From positions 1 through 10,217 of the forward strand of contig PXTR01000021.1 of assembly GCA_003023245.1 (NCBI GenBank): a stretch of DNA of 10,217 bases, given 5' to 3'. Source of the DNA: Bacteroidetes bacterium QS_8_68_15. GTDB taxonomy: Bacteria; Bacteroidota; Rhodothermia; Rhodothermales; Salinibacteraceae. Below are positions 912 to 10,217 of this stretch, piece after piece. Position numbers and translations under genes: made by a program. Each line of letters opens with the position of its first letter. The first letter of the stretch is position 1. The notes under the pieces were generated by a model. That model did not search any database, was not told the origin of the DNA, and saw only the letters and a list, made by a program, of their open reading frames with translations.

Positions 912-2018
912 ATGATCATCGACGACCTCGGCACGCCGTCCCTGCTCGTCGAAAAGGAGCGTCTGGAGCACAACCTGCGGCGGATGCAGTCCACCGCCGA
1001 GGCCGGCGGCGCACAGTTGCGCCCGCACGTCAAGACGCACAAGTCGCCGTGGATTGCGCGACGGCAGCGCGAAGCGGGCGCCGAAGGCCTCACCGTCGCC
1101 ACGCCCGCCGAGGCGGAGGCGTTCTTCGAGGACGGCTTCGAGGATTTGCGCGTGGCCTACGCCGTCGTGGGAGAGCCCGGCGTCGCGCAAGCCGCGCAGT
1201 GTTATGAAGGCAAACGCCGCCCCGCGCCGGTGCTCATCGAGGTCGACGTGGGGCACGGGCGCTGCGGCGTGCCGTGGAACCACCCGGAGCGCGCCGAGAC
1301 GCTGGCGCGCCGCGTTACCGAGGCGCCGGCGCTGGAGCTGGTGGGCCTCCTCACGCACGCTGGGCACAGCTACCACGGCCCCACCGAGGGCGGAACGCCC
1401 GACGACGCGCTCCGGCGCGTGGCCCGCGAGGAGCGCGAGCGCATCCTGGCCGTTGCCGAGGACCTGCGCGACGCGGGGTGGGCCGACCCGGCCGACTTCG
1501 AAATCAGCATCGGCTCGACGCCGTCGATGACGCACTTCGCAAACGACACGCGCGCGGGCTTTTCAATTACCGAGGTGCGGCCCGGCAACTACGTCTTCTA
1601 CGATGGGATGCAGGTGGCCCTCGGCGCGGCCCCGCTCGACGACTGCGCCCTCACCGTGCTGGCGACCGTTACCAGCAAGCGCCGCTCCGAGGAGGGCACC
1701 GAACGGCTCTACCTCGACGCCGGAAAGAAAGTCCTCACCACCGACCGCGGCAGCTACGGGCTCGACGGCTACGGCACGCTTCTCTACAACGCCGCCGCGA
1801 TGCGCCCGTGGCCGCACGCTCGCGTCGAGCGCCTCAGCGAGGAGCACGCCTGGGTCAACGTGCCCGGCGGCGCGCCCTTCACGACGGGCGACCGCCTGCG
1901 CCTGGTGCCGAACCACGCCTGCGTCACCGTCGCCACGCAGCCGGCGCTCACGCTCGTCGACGGGGAAGACGTGATCGAAACGCTGCCGGTCGTGGCGCGT
2001 GGGCACCGCGCGCCGTGA
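912..2018 (+). CDS. D-threonine aldolase / D-serine dehydratase family PLP enzyme
   Basis: 368-residue member of the alanine-racemase-fold PLP enzymes that act on D-hydroxy amino acids: D-threonine aldolase gives glycine plus acetaldehyde, and the Dsd1-type dehydratase gives pyruvate plus ammonia. Start ATG 912 gives the typical N terminus (IDDLGTPSLLVE). Lys41 in RPHVKTHK is the PLP lysine. The barrel domain (about 5-235) includes GLLTHAGHSY (145-154), SIGSTPS (199-205) and EVRPGNYVFYD (221-231), all hallmarks of the family. The C-terminal domain (about 245-360) ends in VPNHACVT, where His335 and Cys337 match the divalent-metal ligands of this family. Length and motifs are complete. Substrate choice among D-Thr, D-Ser and 3-hydroxy-D-Asp cannot be told from motifs. 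It lies about 100 nt after the carbonic anhydrase and 28 nt before the next gene, so co-transcription with the latter is plausible. Longer upstream starts in this frame would run through the spacer repeat and are unlikely. Confidence 0.9.
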   Translation: MIIDDLGTPSLLVEKERLEHNLRRMQSTAEAGGAQLRPHVKTHKSPWIARRQREAGAEGLTVATPAEAEAFFEDGFEDLRVAYAVVGEPGVAQAAQCYEGKRRPAPVLIEVDVGHGRCGVPWNHPERAETLARRVTEAPALELVGLLTHAGHSYHGPTEGGTPDDALRRVAREERERILAVAEDLRDAGWADPADFEISIGSTPSMTHFANDTRAGFSITEVRPGNYVFYDGMQVALGAAPLDDCALTVLATVTSKRRSEEGTERLYLDAGKKVLTTDRGSYGLDGYGTLLYNAAAMRPWPHARVERLSEEHAWVNVPGGAPFTTGDRLRLVPNHACVTVATQPALTLVDGEDVIETLPVVARGHRAP

Positions 2019-2046
2019 CTTTGCGCACCGCCGCCGCCCCCCGCCC

Positions 2047-2913
2047 ATGAGCGCTTCCTCGCAGACTGCGCCCGGCCCCACCGCCGCGTCGACCAATGCC
2101 GCGCTGCGTCGCGTCACCCGGCGACTGGCCGAGCGGTACGCGCCGGAGGCCGTCGTGCTCTACGGGTCGCAGGCGTGGGGGCGACCGCACCCGCGTCACA
2201 GCGACGCGGATCTCTTCGTCCTCAAGGGCAATCCCGCCGAGGATGACGCTTCGCGCGCCGAGCGGGCCCGGACGGTGCGCGAGTTGCTCCGCGAAGCCCC
2301 CCGCCCGGCTGAGACGCTGCCGCTCGACGTGCTGGTGCTCAAGCCGCAGGAAGCGGAGTATCGACTCGCGCGCGGCGATCAGTTCGTCGCCCGCATCCTC
2401 ACGGAAGGACGCGTGCTCTACGAACGCGCCGGGGCCGCAACGTCCCCGATCCAAAAACTCCGCAAAAAGATAGACGCCATGCCCCCACCTGACGAATCCG
2501 ACTATCCGCACGAGTGGATCGAGCGCGCCGACAAGGACTGGAGGCGCGTGCAGGTGCTCCTCGGCGCAGACGATTCGGAAATGGCCGCTTTTCGTCTCCA
2601 GCAAGCGGTCGAGAAGTTCCTGAAGGCCTTCCTGCTCTCGAAGGGGTGGACGCTCCGCAAGACGCACCAGCTCACCGATCTGCTCGCCGCCGCCGCCGCC
2701 GAGCACGACGTGCCGCTGGACGGCGACGCCGCGCCGGCGGATTTCGACGCGGTCTGCAGCACGATCACGGACTTTTACTTCGCGGACCGCTACCCGGCGC
2801 TGCCCGGCGAAGAGCGCCCGCAGACCGATTCCTCCGCGGCCGGCGTGCGGAGCGCGCGAACGCAGGTCGAGCCGCTGGTCGACGCCTTACGGAAGGGCGT
2901 CGGCGGGACGTGA
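2047..2913 (+). CDS. fused MNT nucleotidyltransferase-HEPN domain protein
   Basis: 288-residue two-domain protein. Residues about 17-130 form a minimal nucleotidyltransferase: VVLYGSQAWG (G40, S41), then D53 and D55 (DAD), fit the GS-x(9-13)-DxD signature, and D94 in LPLDVLVL supplies the third carboxylate. Residues about 153-285 form a HEPN domain of the PF05168 type, with AFRLQQAVEKFLKAFLL (181-197), KTHQLTDLL (205-213) and ADRYP (246-250). MNT and HEPN are usually separate partners in toxin-antitoxin pairs (HepT/MntA type); here they are on one chain with no partner gene beside it. I see no Rx4-6H ribonuclease motif in the HEPN part, so it may bind rather than cut RNA. ATG 2047 was chosen; GTG 1999 would overlap the preceding gene and add 16 arginine/proline-rich residues. 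Nucleotide substrate and target are unknown. Confidence 0.88.
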   Translation: MSASSQTAPGPTAASTNAALRRVTRRLAERYAPEAVVLYGSQAWGRPHPRHSDADLFVLKGNPAEDDASRAERARTVRELLREAPRPAETLPLDVLVLKPQEAEYRLARGDQFVARILTEGRVLYERAGAATSPIQKLRKKIDAMPPPDESDYPHEWIERADKDWRRVQVLLGADDSEMAAFRLQQAVEKFLKAFLLSKGWTLRKTHQLTDLLAAAAAEHDVPLDGDAAPADFDAVCSTITDFYFADRYPALPGEERPQTDSSAAGVRSARTQVEPLVDALRKGVGGT

Positions 2914-3837: not shown

Positions 3838-3893
3838 GGGGCGAGGGGCGAACCGGTTCGGTCTACTCGCCAATCGTCATTCGAAAATCGTCC
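3838..3893. repeat. yebC-ruvC spacer with nested dyads
   Basis: GGCGAG (3840-3845) pairs perfectly with CTCGCC (3866-3871) and encloses a perfect 12-nt palindrome, CGAACCGGTTCG, at 3849-3860. After it come the words ATCGTC, ATTCGAAA and ATCGTCC up to the ruvC ATG at 3894. Transcribed together, it would form a hairpin between the two coding regions. Function is unknown; it may tune ruvC expression or be part of an intergenic repeat family. Confidence 0.55.
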
Positions 3894-4463
3894 ATGGTTA
3901 TCCTCGGCGTCGATCCCGGTTCGCGCGCGGCGGGCTACGCGCTCGTCGAGGTCGGGGAGGAGCGCGACCGCGAACGGGTGCTCGACGCTGGCACGTTGCG
4001 CTTCGACGGTTCGACGCCGCACGCACTGCGTCTGCGCGAGATCTACTGCCGGCTCAGCGAGATCGTCGAGGACGCCCCGCCGGACGAAGGCGCCGTCGAG
4101 ATGCCCGTCTACGGAAAAAACCCGCAGTCCATGCTCAAGCTCGGGCGCGCGCAGGCCGCGGCGATGCTGGTGTTGTTGAACCGAGACCTCCCGGTGAGCG
4201 AGTACACTCCGAAAGAGGTCAAGAAATCCGTCACCGGCGGCGGCAATGCCGGGAAGCACCAGGTGCAGCAGATGGTCTGCTCGATGCTCGACCTCGACGC
4301 CGCAGATTTGAGCTACGACGCCTCCGACGCGCTGGCCGTGGCGCTCTGCCACCGGCACCGACACGGTTCCTCCTCGCCGGCGGCGGGCGGCGCCGACGCG
4401 TCGGAGGGACATCACGACGACTGGGCCGCCTTCGCCGAAGCCCATCCGGATCGGATCGGTTGA
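3894..4463 (+). CDS. ruvC: Holliday junction resolvase RuvC
   Basis: 189-residue RuvC, the endonuclease that resolves four-way recombination junctions together with RuvAB. All four catalytic carboxylates are visible: Asp7 in ILGVDPGS, Glu69 in AVEMPVYGKN, and Asp142 and Asp145 in SYDASDALAVALCH. PQSMLKLGRAQAA (77-89) and TPKEVKKSVTGGGNAGK (105-121) are the family's junction-binding segments. Start ATG 3894 gives the standard N terminus; an in-frame ATG at 3834 overlapping the yebC stop would add 20 residues not typical of RuvC. The core ends near 157, and a Gly/Ala/His/Asp-rich tail of about 30 residues follows, longer than in E. coli and probably disordered. It converges on the minus-strand gene at 4511-4777. 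Confidence 0.95.
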   Translation: MVILGVDPGSRAAGYALVEVGEERDRERVLDAGTLRFDGSTPHALRLREIYCRLSEIVEDAPPDEGAVEMPVYGKNPQSMLKLGRAQAAAMLVLLNRDLPVSEYTPKEVKKSVTGGGNAGKHQVQQMVCSMLDLDAADLSYDASDALAVALCHRHRHGSSSPAAGGADASEGHHDDWAAFAEAHPDRIG

Positions 4464-4498
4464 AAAGAGAAGGGTCCTCCGCAGCGAGAACCCCCTTC
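4463..4498 (-). terminator. terminator-like hairpin for the minus-strand gene
   Basis: GAAGGG (4469-4474) pairs with CCCTTC (4493-4498). An inner near-match stem TCCTC/GAGAA follows with a two-base bulge and a loop of about six. On the minus strand the hairpin is followed by TCTTTTCA (4468-4461), a U-rich tail. It lies 12 nt past the stop of the minus-strand gene. On the plus strand, after ruvC, no T tract follows, so it is better placed as the terminator of the minus-strand gene. Confidence 0.5.
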
Positions 4499-4510
4499 CC
4501 CCTGCAACGT

Positions 4511-4777
4511 TCAGCGTTCCCGGTCGCGCGCCTCGATGACGTCAGTGATTTCGTCGGGGCAGAGCGCACCGTCGGACAAGCGGCCTGCGAGCTGGGCCAC
4601 CTGACGGACTTTTTTCGGGGAGCGCTCCCACTCAGGATGCGCTTCCTCGATGAGACTGACGAGGATGCGCAGGTACGGGAAGCGGGCTCGCGGAGTGTCG
4701 AGCTGAGCGATGGCGCAGGCGAAGAGTTGCGCGTTGCGTCCGACCTTGCGGTCGAGAATTCGGCGGGGGTACGACAT
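4511..4777 (-). CDS. small conserved-looking protein, DUF4290-like at low confidence
   Basis: 88-residue soluble, probably all-helical protein with no signal or membrane segment. Visible features are KVGRNAQLFACAI (11-23), RARFPYLRILVSLIEEAHPEW (30-50), and a charged C terminus. The GRN near the N terminus followed by an arginine-containing helix and a long LxxLVSLIE helix recalls the DUF4290 family of Bacteroidota, but that is a by-eye resemblance to a longer family and could be wrong. Support for real coding comes from G/C-rich third positions in this frame, a terminator-like hairpin just past its stop, and no competing plus-strand gene. It is convergent with ruvC and divergent from the gene at 5061. 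The function is not known. Confidence 0.72.
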   Translation of the reverse strand: MSYPRRILDRKVGRNAQLFACAIAQLDTPRARFPYLRILVSLIEEAHPEWERSPKKVRQVAQLAGRLSDGALCPDEITDVIEARDRER

Positions 4778-5060
4778 GGCGAATGGCGTAGCGGTGCGTT
4801 ATGGCATTGGGAACGAAGAGAGGAAAGAAAACGCGCCTGTCAGAGCGGCGCACATTACGTCAGCATAGAAAACATGGATCTCGAATGAAAGAGGAACGCG
4901 AGAAAACGACGGCAGGGGCAGCGGGCGTTGGCGCGCGGAAGTAAAGACGACCGCCGGGAAACGCCCACTGGCAGAGCAGCAAGCGGCCACGCAGCGAACT
5001 ATCGGCCTGAGGCGCTCGTTGCAGTGGGCCGCTATCTCGACAGCAACCGCCGCTGTTTCT
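4778..5060. other. divergent intergenic region
   Basis: 283 nt separate the minus-strand gene and the plus-strand gene at 5061, so promoters for both should lie here. I could not find a convincing -33/-7 or -35/-10 pair on either strand. The only structure seen is GGGCGTT (4923-4929) pairing with AACGCCC (4960-4966), with a short inner stem (CGG / CCG near 4936-4953). A-rich patches occur around 4820-4880. Open frames crossing it have no recognisable content. Confidence 0.4.
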
Positions 5061-5345
5061 ATGAAACGCCGTCAGGGACGCAAAGAAAGCGCCTACCGGC
5101 TGGAGCTTCTCGAGCGCGTGCCGGCCTTCACCCGCCGTGCGCGTCGCGATTCTGCATTGGAGGAAGGCCAACTGGTTTACTACGGGCCCACGCCCATGTA
5201 CTACGGCGTCGGCGAAGTCAAGCGCGTAATGGGGCCGCACGTGGCCGTGGATTTTCGCGGCACCGGGACCTTTGGAGTGCACGAGGAGCTGTTCGAGCCG
5301 CAGTACCTGGCGCGCATTCCTCCGAACGTTGCGGAAGAGCTGTAG
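5061..5345 (+). CDS. small beta-rich hypothetical protein
   Basis: 94-residue protein. The first 30 residues are basic (MKRRQGRKES, then TRRARRD). Residues about 34-86 read as a small beta barrel: ALEEGQLVYYGP, then YYGVGEVKRVMGPHVAVDFRGTGTFGV, then ELFEPQYLARI. The alternation of short hydrophobic strands with Gly turns resembles SH3/KOW-like domains such as DUF3553 or the CarD N-terminal domain, which bind nucleic acid or polymerase; this is a fold-level guess only. The ATG at 5061 was chosen over an upstream ATG at 5019 because the 14 extra residues are Ala/Thr-rich and featureless. Third codon positions are strongly G/C, which supports coding. A strong palindrome about 80 nt downstream could terminate it. 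Confidence 0.72.
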   Translation: MKRRQGRKESAYRLELLERVPAFTRRARRDSALEEGQLVYYGPTPMYYGVGEVKRVMGPHVAVDFRGTGTFGVHEELFEPQYLARIPPNVAEEL

Positions 5346-5630: not shown

Positions 5631-7442
5631 ATGTCTTCTTCATCTGATAGCGGGGACCTGTTCACGTCGTCCTTCCGCTACCCCGACCGCTCGTTCGCGT
5701 GGGCGAAAATGACGCTTTCGGATGAGCAGATCGAGCTGAGCGGGTGGGGCTGGCGCGGCCGCCATCACCGCGTAATGCGGCTCGACGAGATTGTGGAGGT
5801 GCAGTGGTGGACGGGCGAAGGCTCCGCCAATCTGGCCCTTCGCCTCCAAGACGGCGCCCACGTGGAGTTGCAAGTGGAGGCGGCCGGGCTCTGGAAGCAT
5901 CGGATTCAGGCGCAGGCTTCCCACCTCAAAGCCCCGCTGATGCGCGACAGGGCGGCCCAGAAGGAGAAAAAAACAGACGGTTCTGCCACGGCGGAAGAGA
6001 CCACGCCCGCCTCCCAGGGCGCCGAAGCAGAACGCGCCGAAGCAGAACGCGCCGAAGCAGAACGTGCTGAGGAGCCGCCGCCCGGGCGCCGCCCGTCCGA
6101 CTCGCCGCCGCCGCAGTTGCACGTTGCCCAGCCGCCGCATGCCACGACCGCCTCGTCGGACGTTGCCGACGGGGAGCCCGCGCCCGCCGGGGACGCCGGG
6201 GACGCCGCCCGCCGCCGAGAAGTGCTCACGCGGAGCTACGCCGAAGCCAACGACGCGCCGTTGCGCTCGAAATCGGCGTGGCGTGCCGAGGAGGTCACGC
6301 TGGTCGCTTTCTGCGGCGTTCTCTGCGGGGCCGAGGACCTCGACACCCTCGAAGTGTACGCGCGCACCCGGTCCGCGCGCCTGCGGCAGTTGCTGCGACT
6401 GCCGGCGGCCTCTTCCTCTTCCGGGCAGGCGCGCCGGCCGCCGCCCCCGCAACTCCTGACGCATTTTCTCGAAACCGTACGGCCGGACGCCTTTCGGCGG
6501 CATCTGGCGTGCTGGCAGCGACGCCTTGCGGCGCACGTGCGCGCGACTGGCGACGGGCGCGTTCCCGACAGCAACGCCAGCGTTGCGCTCGATGGGGTCG
6601 AGATGAAGGCCGGCAAAAACCATCTCGTAATTAGAGCTGAGGGCCAGACGCGCGCCGCCCGCAACGTGCTCGACGCGCTCGCCGCCTTCGACCTGAGCGC
6701 CCGAGACGTGGCCGCCGTGCTGGTCCCACCGAGGCAGGCCGCGCCGGGCCGTCTTCCCCGCTACGCTCGTCCGCACCGGCTCGCGCGTGCCCTTTCGGAA
6801 GGCGAGGCCCGGTTCCTCATGGCCCTCAACGGGGACGACCCGCTACAGCAAGAAATCCTCGACCGCACGCTCCCCGAATCCGCCCTGACAGACGAAGCGT
6901 CCGGCGCGCAGCGAAACCGCCGTTGCTGGGCCGCCGACGTGCCCGAAAACGCCTTTCAACACACCGATGGGTGGCCGGCCACGTCGGTAGGCGCGGTCGT
7001 TGAGGAAACAACCGGTGACGGCGACGTACTCCGCCAGAGCTACCTGGGCAATGGAGCGGCCGACGCGGCTTCGATTCTACAGCAGACGCGGTTCTTTCCG
7101 TCCTCGTCTCTTCCGTGCCAAGAACGAGACGAAAACGAAAAAAGAAAAACAGGGTGGAAAGTCAGCGTGGCTCCCCCCGCGCACGGACAAGAAAACAGAT
7201 GTGCCGAGAATCTGGCCCACCTCCACGACGCTGCCACGATGCTGATCGAGCACCAATCCGACGCCACCACCTCGGTTCGGCAACGGCGAAAGCAGGCCGG
7301 TTGGGACGAAAGCTACCTGCTTTCGATCTTGGAGTATGCGTTGGAAACGTCTTCGGCGGAATCCTCCGCACAGGTTGCTTCTGAAGTGTCGGAAGAGTCG
7401 GGCAGCAGCGGGTCCATCCGCAACCTCAAAAACGCGCTCTGA
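5631..7442 (+). CDS. PH-like domain fused to a degenerate ISAs1-type transposase domain
   Basis: 603 residues, uninterrupted. Residues about 14-95 form a PH/GRAM-like beta module (SSFRYPD, RLDEIVEVQWWTG, VEAAGLWKH) shared with the gene at 7680. A charged linker holds three AEAER repeats (131-145), then Pro/Ala/Asp-rich sequence to about 195. From about 197 the order matches ISAs1/H-repeat transposases: EVTLVAFCGVLCGAEDLDTLEVYA (221-244) is the transposase-associated N-terminal domain; VALDG (318-322) lies where IDGK with the first catalytic Asp is expected; ARFLMALNGDDPLQQEI (393-409) resembles the DYvlalKgNQ segment; ENLAHLHDAATMLI (526-539) and RRKQAGWDESYLLSIL (552-567) match the conserved C terminus. 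The second Asp (usually TIDAM) has no counterpart around 359-367, and the HWxIENxLHWxLDV region (about 487-515) is eroded. Cleavage activity is therefore unlikely. The absence of stops suggests a retained, co-opted function, perhaps DNA binding. The start at 5631 puts the PH module at the same offset as in the paralogue. Family assignment is by memory of motifs. Confidence 0.75.
   Translation: MSSSSDSGDLFTSSFRYPDRSFAWAKMTLSDEQIELSGWGWRGRHHRVMRLDEIVEVQWWTGEGSANLALRLQDGAHVELQVEAAGLWKHRIQAQASHLKAPLMRDRAAQKEKKTDGSATAEETTPASQGAEAERAEAERAEAERAEEPPPGRRPSDSPPPQLHVAQPPHATTASSDVADGEPAPAGDAGDAARRREVLTRSYAEANDAPLRSKSAWRAEEVTLVAFCGVLCGAEDLDTLEVYARTRSARLRQLLRLPAASSSSGQARRPPPPQLLTHFLETVRPDAFRRHLACWQRRLAAHVRATGDGRVPDSNASVALDGVEMKAGKNHLVIRAEGQTRAARNVLDALAAFDLSARDVAAVLVPPRQAAPGRLPRYARPHRLARALSEGEARFLMALNGDDPLQQEILDRTLPESALTDEASGAQRNRRCWAADVPENAFQHTDGWPATSVGAVVEETTGDGDVLRQSYLGNGAADAASILQQTRFFPSSSLPCQERDENEKRKTGWKVSVAPPAHGQENRCAENLAHLHDAATMLIEHQSDATTSVRQRRKQAGWDESYLLSILEYALETSSAESSAQVASEVSEESGSSGSIRNLKNAL
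6021..6065 (+). repeat. 15-nt tandem repeat, three copies, in frame
   Basis: GCCGAAGCAGAACGC is repeated three times (the last copy ends in T), coding AEAER-AEAER-AEAER in the linker between the PH-like and transposase-like parts. The copies are almost identical, so the tract is recent and likely varies in copy number among strains. Each unit is five codons, so changes keep the frame. Confidence 0.9.
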
Positions 7443-7679: not shown

Positions 7680-8078
7680 ATGCTTTTCTCGTCCTCAGCC
7701 GACGCGATCTTGTCGTCGGCCTTCTGTTACTCAGATCAGCGCTTTCTATGGTCGCGCCTGCGGCTCTTCGAGGACCGCATCGAGTTTCTGGGACTGAGGT
7801 GGACGGGGCTGCACCGGCGCACCGTGCCGCTCGACTGCATCAAAAAGCTGCGCTGGTGGACCGGCAGCAGCGGCGTCAACTTCGCGATGCTCCTGCGAGG
7901 GGAAGGCGACGGCGAGGGGCAGGAAGAGGAGGAGCGCATCTACCTGAACGTGGAGGCGGCCGGCCTGTGGAAGCATGAAGTCGAGGCGCGCGTTCCCGAC
8001 CTCGATGCGTCCGGCTCGTCGCTTCCCCAAAGCGCCCCGGCAGCGACCTCTTCGGGAAGAGGTGCGCGAGCGGCGTGA
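7680..8078 (+). CDS. stand-alone PH-like domain protein, paralogue of the preceding gene's N terminus
   Basis: 132 residues. Residues 15-72 align without gaps to 15-72 of the 603-residue protein with 23 of 58 identical, including FxYxD, W24, LD at 51-52, and WWTG at 59-62. VEAAGLWKH recurs at 91-99 (82-90 in the larger protein) after a nine-residue acidic insertion (GEGDGEGQEEEE loop). The tail after about 105 is Ser/Ala/Gly-rich and probably disordered. The frame is open further upstream (ATG at 7467 and 7608), but ATG 7680 puts the shared domain at the same offset in both proteins, and the upstream extension has no match in the paralogue and covers a terminator-like hairpin. Function unknown; a PH/GRAM-like fold would suggest binding to protein or membrane, but this is an inference from the strand pattern. 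Confidence 0.75.
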   Translation: MLFSSSADAILSSAFCYSDQRFLWSRLRLFEDRIEFLGLRWTGLHRRTVPLDCIKKLRWWTGSSGVNFAMLLRGEGDGEGQEEEERIYLNVEAAGLWKHEVEARVPDLDASGSSLPQSAPAATSSGRGARAA

Positions 8079-8397: not shown

Positions 8398-8487
8398 CTG
8401 ACGATGCCCGTTCCGATCCTCCTCGCGGGCGTCCCCACCCCTATTACTTTCCCATTCCTCCACCCCCTTTCCCCACCTTCTCACCCG

Positions 8488-9903
8488 ATGCAAACCACCC
8501 TCCGCGACGCCGGCGCGACCGAGCGCGAACTCGAAGTCGAAGCGCCCGCCGAAGAACTCGAAGATGACCTCCAGCAGGCCCTCCAGGCGCAGCAAAAGCA
8601 GGCTGACATGAAGGGCTTCCGTAAAGGCAAGGTCCCGCTCTCGCTCATCAAGAAGATGTACGGGCAGCAGCTGGGCCTGCAGGTGGCGCAACGCGCCGTG
8701 CAGGAGGCTTTCGAGCAGGAGGTGGAGGAAAACGAGGACGCCCCGGACGTGCTGGGCCGTCCGGAAATCACCGAGCTCGACTACGAGCCGGAGTCGGATC
8801 TGCACGCGGTGGTACGCTTCGGGGTGCGCCCGGAGATCGAGTTGAAGGACCTCTCCGGGGAAGAGCTGCCGAAGCTCGTCCCCGAGGTGAGCGCGGAAGA
8901 CGTCGAGCGCGAGGAGTTGTCGCTGCGCAAGAGCGAAGCGACGCTCCTCCCCACCGACGAGGCCGCCGGCGAAACCGACTACATCGTGTTCGACCTTCAG
9001 GAGCTGGACACGGACAGCGGGACGCCCATCGTGGGCAACAAGGAAGAGGAGCAAGAGCTGTTTTTGGACAGCCCGCAGGTGGAGGGCAACCCGATGCTCG
9101 AAGCGCTCAAGGACGCCGTCGCCGGCGCGCACGCCGGCGAATCGGTGCAGTTCACCATCGGGCATGGGCAGGCGCACGGAGGCGGCGGCGAACATGCGCA
9201 CCGCTTCGAGGTCACGCTCAAGGACGTTAAAAAGCGCGAGCTGCCGGAGCTGACCGACGAGTTCGTTCGCGACGCGACCGACGGGGAGTTCGAGAGCGTG
9301 GAGGACTTTCGCGCGCAGATCCGCGAGCGGCTCGCCGAGGCGTGGCAGCAGCGCGCCGACGAGGCACTCCAACGCGAGATCGTGCAGCGCATGCGCGAGT
9401 TGCACCCGGCGTCCGTGCCGCCGGACGTGGTGGAGACGTTTCTCGACTCCTTCGTCGAAGACGTCAAGCGCCGCAACGACGACGAGCTGCCGGAGGACTT
9501 CGACGAAACCGTCTTTCGCGAGAAAAACCGCAGCGAGGCGCAGGAGCAGGCCCACTGGATGCTCCTACGCGACGAGGTGGTGGACGCCTACGACCTGGAG
9601 GCGACCGATGCGGATATCGACGCCTTTTTCGAAAAGCAGGCGGCTCAGACGCCCGAACTCGAAGCCGATCAGCTGAAGCGCTTCTACGAGTCGCAGGAGG
9701 AGGCGATGGACCAGGTGCGCCAGCAGGTCCTCTCCGAGAAGGTCTTCGACACGCTCGAAGAACAGTTCCAGATCAACGAAAAAGACCGCGAGACCTTCGA
9801 GCAGGAGATGAAGGCCCGCCAGCCCGCCGCCCCGACTGCCGAGGGCGCCGCTCCTCCGGAAGAAGCGGACTCGGGCGAGGATTCCCCGCTGATCGTTACC
9901 TGA
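8488..9903 (+). CDS. tig: trigger factor, ribosome-bound chaperone
   Basis: 471-residue trigger factor, which binds at the ribosome exit tunnel and shields nascent chains. The ribosome-docking signature is intact: MKGFRKGKVP at 41-50 (G43-F44-R45-K46-G47-K48). The N-terminal domain covers about 1-140; a PPIase/FKBP-like insertion follows (about 150-250) with a Gly/His-rich loop (GHGQAHGGGGEHAH); the helical SurA-like C-terminal arms run from about 255 to 440. It is longer than the E. coli protein (432), partly through an acidic Ala/Pro/Glu tail. The protein is strongly acidic throughout. Start ATG 8488 gives the usual N terminus; the in-frame ATG 8404 with a good Shine-Dalgarno sequence is an alternative that adds 28 residues. 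clpP follows on the same strand, the classic tig-clpP arrangement. Confidence 0.95.
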   Translation: MQTTLRDAGATERELEVEAPAEELEDDLQQALQAQQKQADMKGFRKGKVPLSLIKKMYGQQLGLQVAQRAVQEAFEQEVEENEDAPDVLGRPEITELDYEPESDLHAVVRFGVRPEIELKDLSGEELPKLVPEVSAEDVEREELSLRKSEATLLPTDEAAGETDYIVFDLQELDTDSGTPIVGNKEEEQELFLDSPQVEGNPMLEALKDAVAGAHAGESVQFTIGHGQAHGGGGEHAHRFEVTLKDVKKRELPELTDEFVRDATDGEFESVEDFRAQIRERLAEAWQQRADEALQREIVQRMRELHPASVPPDVVETFLDSFVEDVKRRNDDELPEDFDETVFREKNRSEAQEQAHWMLLRDEVVDAYDLEATDADIDAFFEKQAAQTPELEADQLKRFYESQEEAMDQVRQQVLSEKVFDTLEEQFQINEKDRETFEQEMKARQPAAPTAEGAAPPEEADSGEDSPLIVT

Positions 9904-10052: not shown

Positions 10053-10217
10053 ATGAGCGATCAGGTCGACGATTTCGTCAAGTTCAGCAAAGGACTCACA
10101 TCGATGCCGGAAGGCATTTACAGTGGAGGCGCCGGGGAGCAGTCGATGGCGGGCCTCGTGCCGATGGTTGTGGAGCAGACCACGCGCGGGGAGCGCTCCT
10201 ACGACATCTTCAGCCGC
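10053..10217 (+). CDS. clpP: ATP-dependent Clp protease proteolytic subunit, N-terminal part
   Basis: First 55 codons; the gene runs off the right edge. GLVPMVVEQTTRGERSYDIFSR (34-55) is the near-invariant N-terminal ClpP sequence. The catalytic Ser, His and Asp lie beyond the window. ClpP is the barrel-shaped serine peptidase that degrades proteins fed by ClpX or ClpA/C. The first 33 residues are a propeptide-like region that is often trimmed. Position 150 nt after tig fits the usual tig-clpP(-clpX) cluster. Confidence 0.95.
   Translation, partial: MSDQVDDFVKFSKGLTSMPEGIYSGGAGEQSMAGLVPMVVEQTTRGERSYDIFSR

Follow-up and report, generated by a model that had tools for sequence, protein, structure and literature searches.

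The window (the whole stretch of 10,217 nucleotides analyzed here) carries, by Pfam, genes for a carbonic anhydrase, an MNT-HEPN protein, YebC, RuvC, and trigger factor, and between ruvC and tig lies the gene examined in this work, here referred to as X (Table 1). From the sequence alone, X had been proposed to be a co-opted, non-cutting transposase of the ISAs1 type in which an open frame of 603 codons also carries a foreign N-terminal module and a linker. The frame is indeed intact and starts with ATG, and the linker is present between the N-terminal module and the transposase-like region. The linker is variable, with 6 of its 91 positions invariant when the window and two of the relatives described below (SW_4_67_19 and P0004) are compared.

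Table 1. Features of the locus (window positions; residue numbers refer to the X protein)
Feature	Positions	Strand	Remarks
ruvC	3888..4463	+	PF02075; start inferred; left synteny anchor
Small conserved ORF upstream of X	5019..5345	+	left flank of the X site; no Pfam match
Gene X	5631..7442	+	603 aa, one frame; fusion of PH-like module and ISAs1-derived region
PH-like module of X	5631..5939	+	residues 1-103; strands and C-terminal helix in models
Low-complexity linker of X	5940..6212	+	residues 104-194; EAERA repeats
DDE_Tnp_1_assoc-like domain of X	6213..6539	+	residues 195-303; Pfam E 2.2e-6 (below cut-off); segment E 3e-11
Expected site of both catalytic Asp	6540..6890	+	residues 304-420; unrecognizable as ISAs1, conserved in X family
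Asp321 in VALDGVE	6591..6593	+	sole catalytic-type residue remaining; Glu in P0004
GRLPRYARPHRLA motif	6747..6785	+	occupies place of ISAs1 TIDAMGCQ region
C-terminal part of ISAs1 homology	6891..7355	+	residues 421-575; segment E 5e-20
Small PH-like gene	7680..8078	+	upstream of tig; paralogue of X N-terminal module; start from relatives
tig (trigger factor)	8464..9903	+	PF05697, PF05698; start inferred
clpP (presumed)	10053..10217	+	start of gene; runs off window

The gene order yebC, ruvC, small ORF, X, small PH-like gene, tig, clpP is common to the window and to contig PXTX01000006.1 of the MAG SW_4_67_19, and these are the only two genomes in which X was met at a fixed orthologous position. 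A third contig, PXTT01000073.1 of the MAG QS_9_68_14, has the same order minus X. There, the homologue of the small ORF ends at 6999 and the PH-like gene begins near 7428 (5345 and 7680 in the window), and a permissive tblastn search of the intervening site found no convincing remnant of X (best E 0.41). X was either gained after the split from the QS_9_68_14 lineage or lost within that lineage. The small ORF on the left flank is 88% (SW_4_67_19) and 85% (QS_9_68_14) identical over 94 residues.

Several other features of these loci were observed in passing. The MNT-HEPN-type gene (window 1999-2913) encodes a nucleotidyltransferase domain together with a HEPN domain in a single frame and has no tblastn match in the SW_4_67_19 or QS_9_68_14 locus. 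The DNA at window 4493-4837 is 83% identical in SW_4_67_19 and, over 4628-4797, 80% identical in QS_9_68_14; it is overlapped by a minus-strand ORF (4511-4777, 88 codons) with no Pfam match. No Rfam family was found in the window at the gathering score. On the minus strand of the SW_4_67_19 contig, positions 10473-12890 hold a RuvB-like frame of 805 codons that, by eye, appears to be interrupted by an intein, with a Cys after GPPGLGK and an HN before TTLAH as the putative marks.

Relatives of X were sought in 5.8 billion proteins, of which the 7993 candidates sharing the most words were scored. This search gave three X clusters, and a profile search with the same limit gave the same three. One, P0002, is the cluster of the window protein itself and differs from it by one residue; P0003 (623 amino acids), whose cluster counts 28 member sequences, is 53-58% and P0004 (557 amino acids) 41-44% identical to X. 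The architecture of PH-like module, linker, and ISAs1 region is common to all three clusters, being kept in full in the JGI proteins P0003 and P0004. The X gene of SW_4_67_19, which is 97% identical to P0003, was found by way of a scan for trigger factor. A direct scan of genome contigs with X returned no relative even though SW_4_67_19 is in that collection; because this contig was reached only via tig, absences from direct contig scans carry little weight. An assembly chimera was considered and is unlikely, given that the fusion is found in the window, in PXTX01000006.1, and in both JGI proteins.

Homology to ISAs1 transposases and the rewritten catalytic segment

ISAs1 transposases are the H-repeat, YhhI/YdcC-type proteins (names that come in part from source labels). 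Residues 195-575 of the X family were compared with 123 ISAs1 proteins, comprising the best 120 of 7998 matches to one family member plus three from the loci, all fairly close kin of each other. The resulting hhalign match had an E value of 1e-27 over 346 columns (1.2e-27 with corrected rows), while the best of 30 column-shuffled controls reached 0.15 (0.11 for residues 305-575), which rules out a chance alignment. The two outer segments match individually (Table 1), and residues 1-103 gave an E value of 0.3, as expected of an unrelated module. Thus, the ISAs1 segment order originally read over residues 197-570 is borne out as collinear homology over 195-575, with the exception that residues 305-420, taken alone, do not match significantly (E 0.047). 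Library models recognized only parts of X: PF13808 (DDE_Tnp_1_assoc) scored 28.1 bits against a cut-off of 32.3, and the ISAs1 model NF033564 scored 20.5 bits over the first quarter of the model only (cut-off, 70 bits).

At the level of single residues, X is 19-24% identical to 47 aligned ISAs1 proteins. All four X proteins retain 18 of the 79 columns that are at least 95% conserved in those 47 rows (6 of 20 in residues 195-303, 8 of 50 in 304-520, and 4 of 9 in 521-575), the middle count being a lower bound because MAFFT misplaces the first-Asp motif. Shared with ISAs1 transposases are the associated domain, a LALKGN-like motif, and AGWDExYL, the last of which confirms the segment first noted as WDESYLL. 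X differs from them in the loss of the second Asp and the Glu, in the rewritten two-Asp segment, in the loss of the GIPSHDT and HWxIEN motifs, in the added PH-like module and linker, and in its single fixed place.

The residues that we take to be the catalytic triad of DDE enzymes, namely the IDGK Asp, the TIDAMG Asp, and the HWxIEN Glu, are each found in all 123 of the ISAs1 proteins compared. In X, the second Asp has no counterpart in any of the four proteins (window, SW_4_67_19, P0003, and P0004), in agreement with what had been predicted, and the Glu is likewise lost from all four. The surrounding Glu region varies in length; acidic residues lie close by, with none conserved in register. 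The first Asp, recognized beforehand in an IDGK-like VALDG, is kept in three of the four proteins and is a Glu in P0004. As judged from these alignments, X is very unlikely to be a cutting enzyme.

In place of the second-Asp site, X has PPxxxAxGRLPRYARPxRLA, which is two residues longer in P0004 and within which GRLPRYARPxRLA forms a new basic motif. Across the four X proteins, GRLPRYARPHRLA is identical save for one position (H or Q). Residues 304-420 as a whole have a dN/dS ratio (omega) of 0.093, and 46 of the 117 positions are invariant among the window, SW_4_67_19, and P0004. By this evidence, the lost catalytic segment has been rewritten and is conserved across the X family, which goes beyond mere erosion. 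The HWxIEN...LDV region, described earlier as eroded, has indeed lost its Glu.

Two structure models were available for this region, of which the one built with ISAs1 rows has block pLDDT values of 58-69 in residues 321-380 and the one built without them falls under a pLDDT of 50 over most of the C-terminal region. In a Foldseek search with the model built with ISAs1 rows, the first row outside the PH fold was Tn5 transposase (E 1.9e-3, probability 0.85), with a TM-score of about 0.2 and an rmsd of 18.7. This structural match to a transposase is weak and, because the alignment behind the model contained ISAs1 rows, not independent; moreover, the Tn5 active site is missing in X. No transposase is among the 50 VIA rows, which says nothing against the fold because the PH module fills them. 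Neither X nor the PH profile has a direct sequence match to a solved structure at an E value of ≤1.

Selection on X and its distribution

Selection was estimated from one species pair, the window and SW_4_67_19, for which DNA is at hand on both sides. For the whole of X, the codon model gave an omega of 0.160 (dN 0.31, dS 1.95; 2dlnL 202 against omega 1), a value that, like those below, is rough because synonymous sites are near saturation. By part, omega is 0.134 for the PH-like module, 0.130 for the associated domain, and 0.091 for the core-like region; residues 521-575 are less constrained (0.268, 2dlnL 9.2), residues 421-520 alone gave a degenerate estimate, and that for the linker was unusable. 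The neighboring genes yielded 0.022 (yebC), 0.074 (tig), 0.103 (small PH-like gene), and 0.109 (ruvC). X is thus less constrained than these genes, yet far from neutral.

These values bear on the possibility that X is a decaying insertion sequence remnant left open by its base composition. At 67% G+C, long chance frames are common, and a 378-codon antisense frame over X (window 5640-6776, minus strand) is open as well, as is its counterpart of 394 codons in SW_4_67_19. However, differences between the window and SW_4_67_19 in X amount to 0.49 at third and 0.22 at second codon positions, and in a neutral simulation of 500 runs X acquired a mean of 11.8 stops (minimum, 3), with none of the runs remaining open. 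Moreover, the whole frame is kept in the window, SW_4_67_19, P0003, and P0004, and the antisense frame, which is probably a G+C effect, is less conserved between the two genomes (41% identity) than X (57%). The pseudogene reading, named at the outset as an outcome that would overturn co-option, is refuted by the dN/dS estimate and the neutral simulation and retains next to no probability.

With respect to distribution, a sample of 195 genomes from the class was scanned with the X profile, scoring at most 6 candidates per genome. Part of the profile was matched in 41 genomes, and full-length X was found in one, that of SW_4_67_19. Within the family, 22 of 27 genomes have some match, full-length X again being confined to SW_4_67_19, which holds one copy. 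The remaining matches are for the most part small proteins bearing the N-terminal module, along with some ISAs1 transposases. With one occurrence in each genome set and three clusters among the proteins, X is rare.

Descent from a transposase and this patchy distribution could also point to a protein that still belongs to a mobile element, either as an unusual active transposase or as a passenger. Against this stand the loss of the DDE residues, the shared site in two genomes, and the single full-length copy in SW_4_67_19. In addition, tblastn of X against 72,556 plasmid and 50,697 phage records returned no match, and of 29 pattern matches in viral contigs (two patterns, both from the PH module) none was confirmed. 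We consider a mobile-element protein highly improbable.

The PH-like module and the tig locus

The N-terminal module of X has a PH fold in both structure models, including the one built without any ISAs1 row. The predicted module is a strand barrel closed by a C-terminal helix, as in the PH-like superfamily. Bacterial PH-like domains (PHb, PF08000) are described in the accessible part of one report (PMC2817789), and the X module would share their PH fold; that part of the report mentions no transposase fusion, unlike X. None of 24 PH-like family members matched PF08000 at an E value of ≤0.1, in a search for which HMM sensitivity is limited, and the Pfam scan of the window listed no match to it either.

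Relatives of the module include small PH-like proteins encoded near tig in this bacterial class; a module tree and a 36% identity (E 3e-22) with the adjacent small PH-like gene mark it as a paralogue. The aligned members measure roughly 100-200 amino acids and, unlike X, have no transposase part. The N-terminal module, originally called foreign, is therefore not foreign to the locus. If the tree is right, the PH duplication would be older than the split from the QS_9_68_14 lineage.

In the window and seven other genomes, among them SW_4_67_19 and QS_9_68_14, tig has a small PH-like gene as its neighbor, an arrangement seen even at tig identities as low as about 35-43%. Among family genomes with both a PH-module match and tig, the two are adjacent in 3 of 18 (SW_4_67_19 and two others); in the remaining 15, they are on different contigs or far apart. 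In the class sample, tig is within 1.5 kb in 4 of 27 other PH loci, with clpP behind tig. Given these counts, the link recurs in distant lineages and is not general, and the adjacency may mark an old functional link.

Co-option of X and its possible role

We are highly confident of the anatomy of X and of its co-option. The prediction of a co-opted, non-cutting transposase is supported by the homology, the lost catalytic residues, the fusion, the same site in two genomes, a related site lacking X, and purifying selection. On balance, we favor the fuller explanation that X is a co-opted host gene, made from a PH-like copy and an ISAs1 transposase, that now serves as a non-cutting adaptor; we infer that it would bind nucleic acid or protein. 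By this account, an ISAs1 transposase was joined to a copy of the PH-like gene of the tig locus; the DDE active site disappeared from the transposase portion, and purifying selection came to act on the fusion as a chromosomal gene. The retained associated domain and C-terminal part would then be DNA- and self-binding parts, and the PH-like module would hold a partner, either protein or membrane, which it may share with the small PH-like protein or trigger factor. In a few Bacteroidota, a former genomic parasite seems to have been turned into a new host protein, and its catalytic segment was rewritten under selection instead of simply lost.

The individual activities are less certain than the origin. 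Nucleic acid binding by X is suggested by the kept transposase flanks and the basic character of the new motif, and has, in our estimate, slightly less than an even chance; a protein or membrane partner is suggested by the PH-like half. Alternatively, the ISAs1-derived part may no longer bind nucleic acid and may act only in scaffolding or multimerization for the PH-like domain. This would fit the unrecognizable two-Asp segment and the few conserved ISAs1 columns that survive, but the flanking segments are clearly ISAs1 and the new motif is basic, and we regard it as rather unlikely. A link between X and trigger factor is less probable still. As a long shot, the rewritten segment with GRLPRYARP could form a new binding surface while the PH half ties X to the small PH-like protein and the trigger factor/ClpP locus; if true, a former ISAs1 transposase would work in protein folding or its regulation.

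To our knowledge, conversion of a bacterial transposase into a host gene has seldom been caught with both the domain gain and the catalytic loss observable among extant relatives. For X, comparison can take in full-length ISAs1 genes, the small PH-like partner gene, the fusion protein from several lineages, and an X-free site, which makes the steps of co-option testable. TldR proteins, derived from TnpB, are of an RNA-guided lineage, not DDE, and, unlike X, are not known to have a PH-like module. They are reported to be nuclease-dead repressors (PMC13418256) and resemble X in that a transposon-encoded nuclease lost catalysis and was retained in a different role. A search of the open-licence literature, through listings and the starts of abstracts, turned up no report of a domesticated ISAs1 transposase; one query relied on a Pfam name, which may not appear in print. 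Transposase domestication is a known kind of event; neither the ISAs1 donor family nor the PH-like fusion partner was found in the literature searched.

X might instead act against live ISAs1 elements as a dominant-negative repressor, binding their ends or poisoning their dimers. In favor of this, full-length ISAs1 genes occur in three other family genomes (5 of 27 have a match over the cut-off), and the X-bearing SW_4_67_19 genome has a truncated canonical ISAs1 remnant on its contig C105. Nevertheless, the low identity of X to ISAs1 proteins and the few conserved columns it retains speak against such interference, and SW_4_67_19, whose genome (1.9 Mb) is probably incomplete, shows only the remnant. 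A repressor is therefore possible, poorly supported, and in our judgment improbable. The remnant itself keeps the motif in a broken frame and offers a useful contrast to X.
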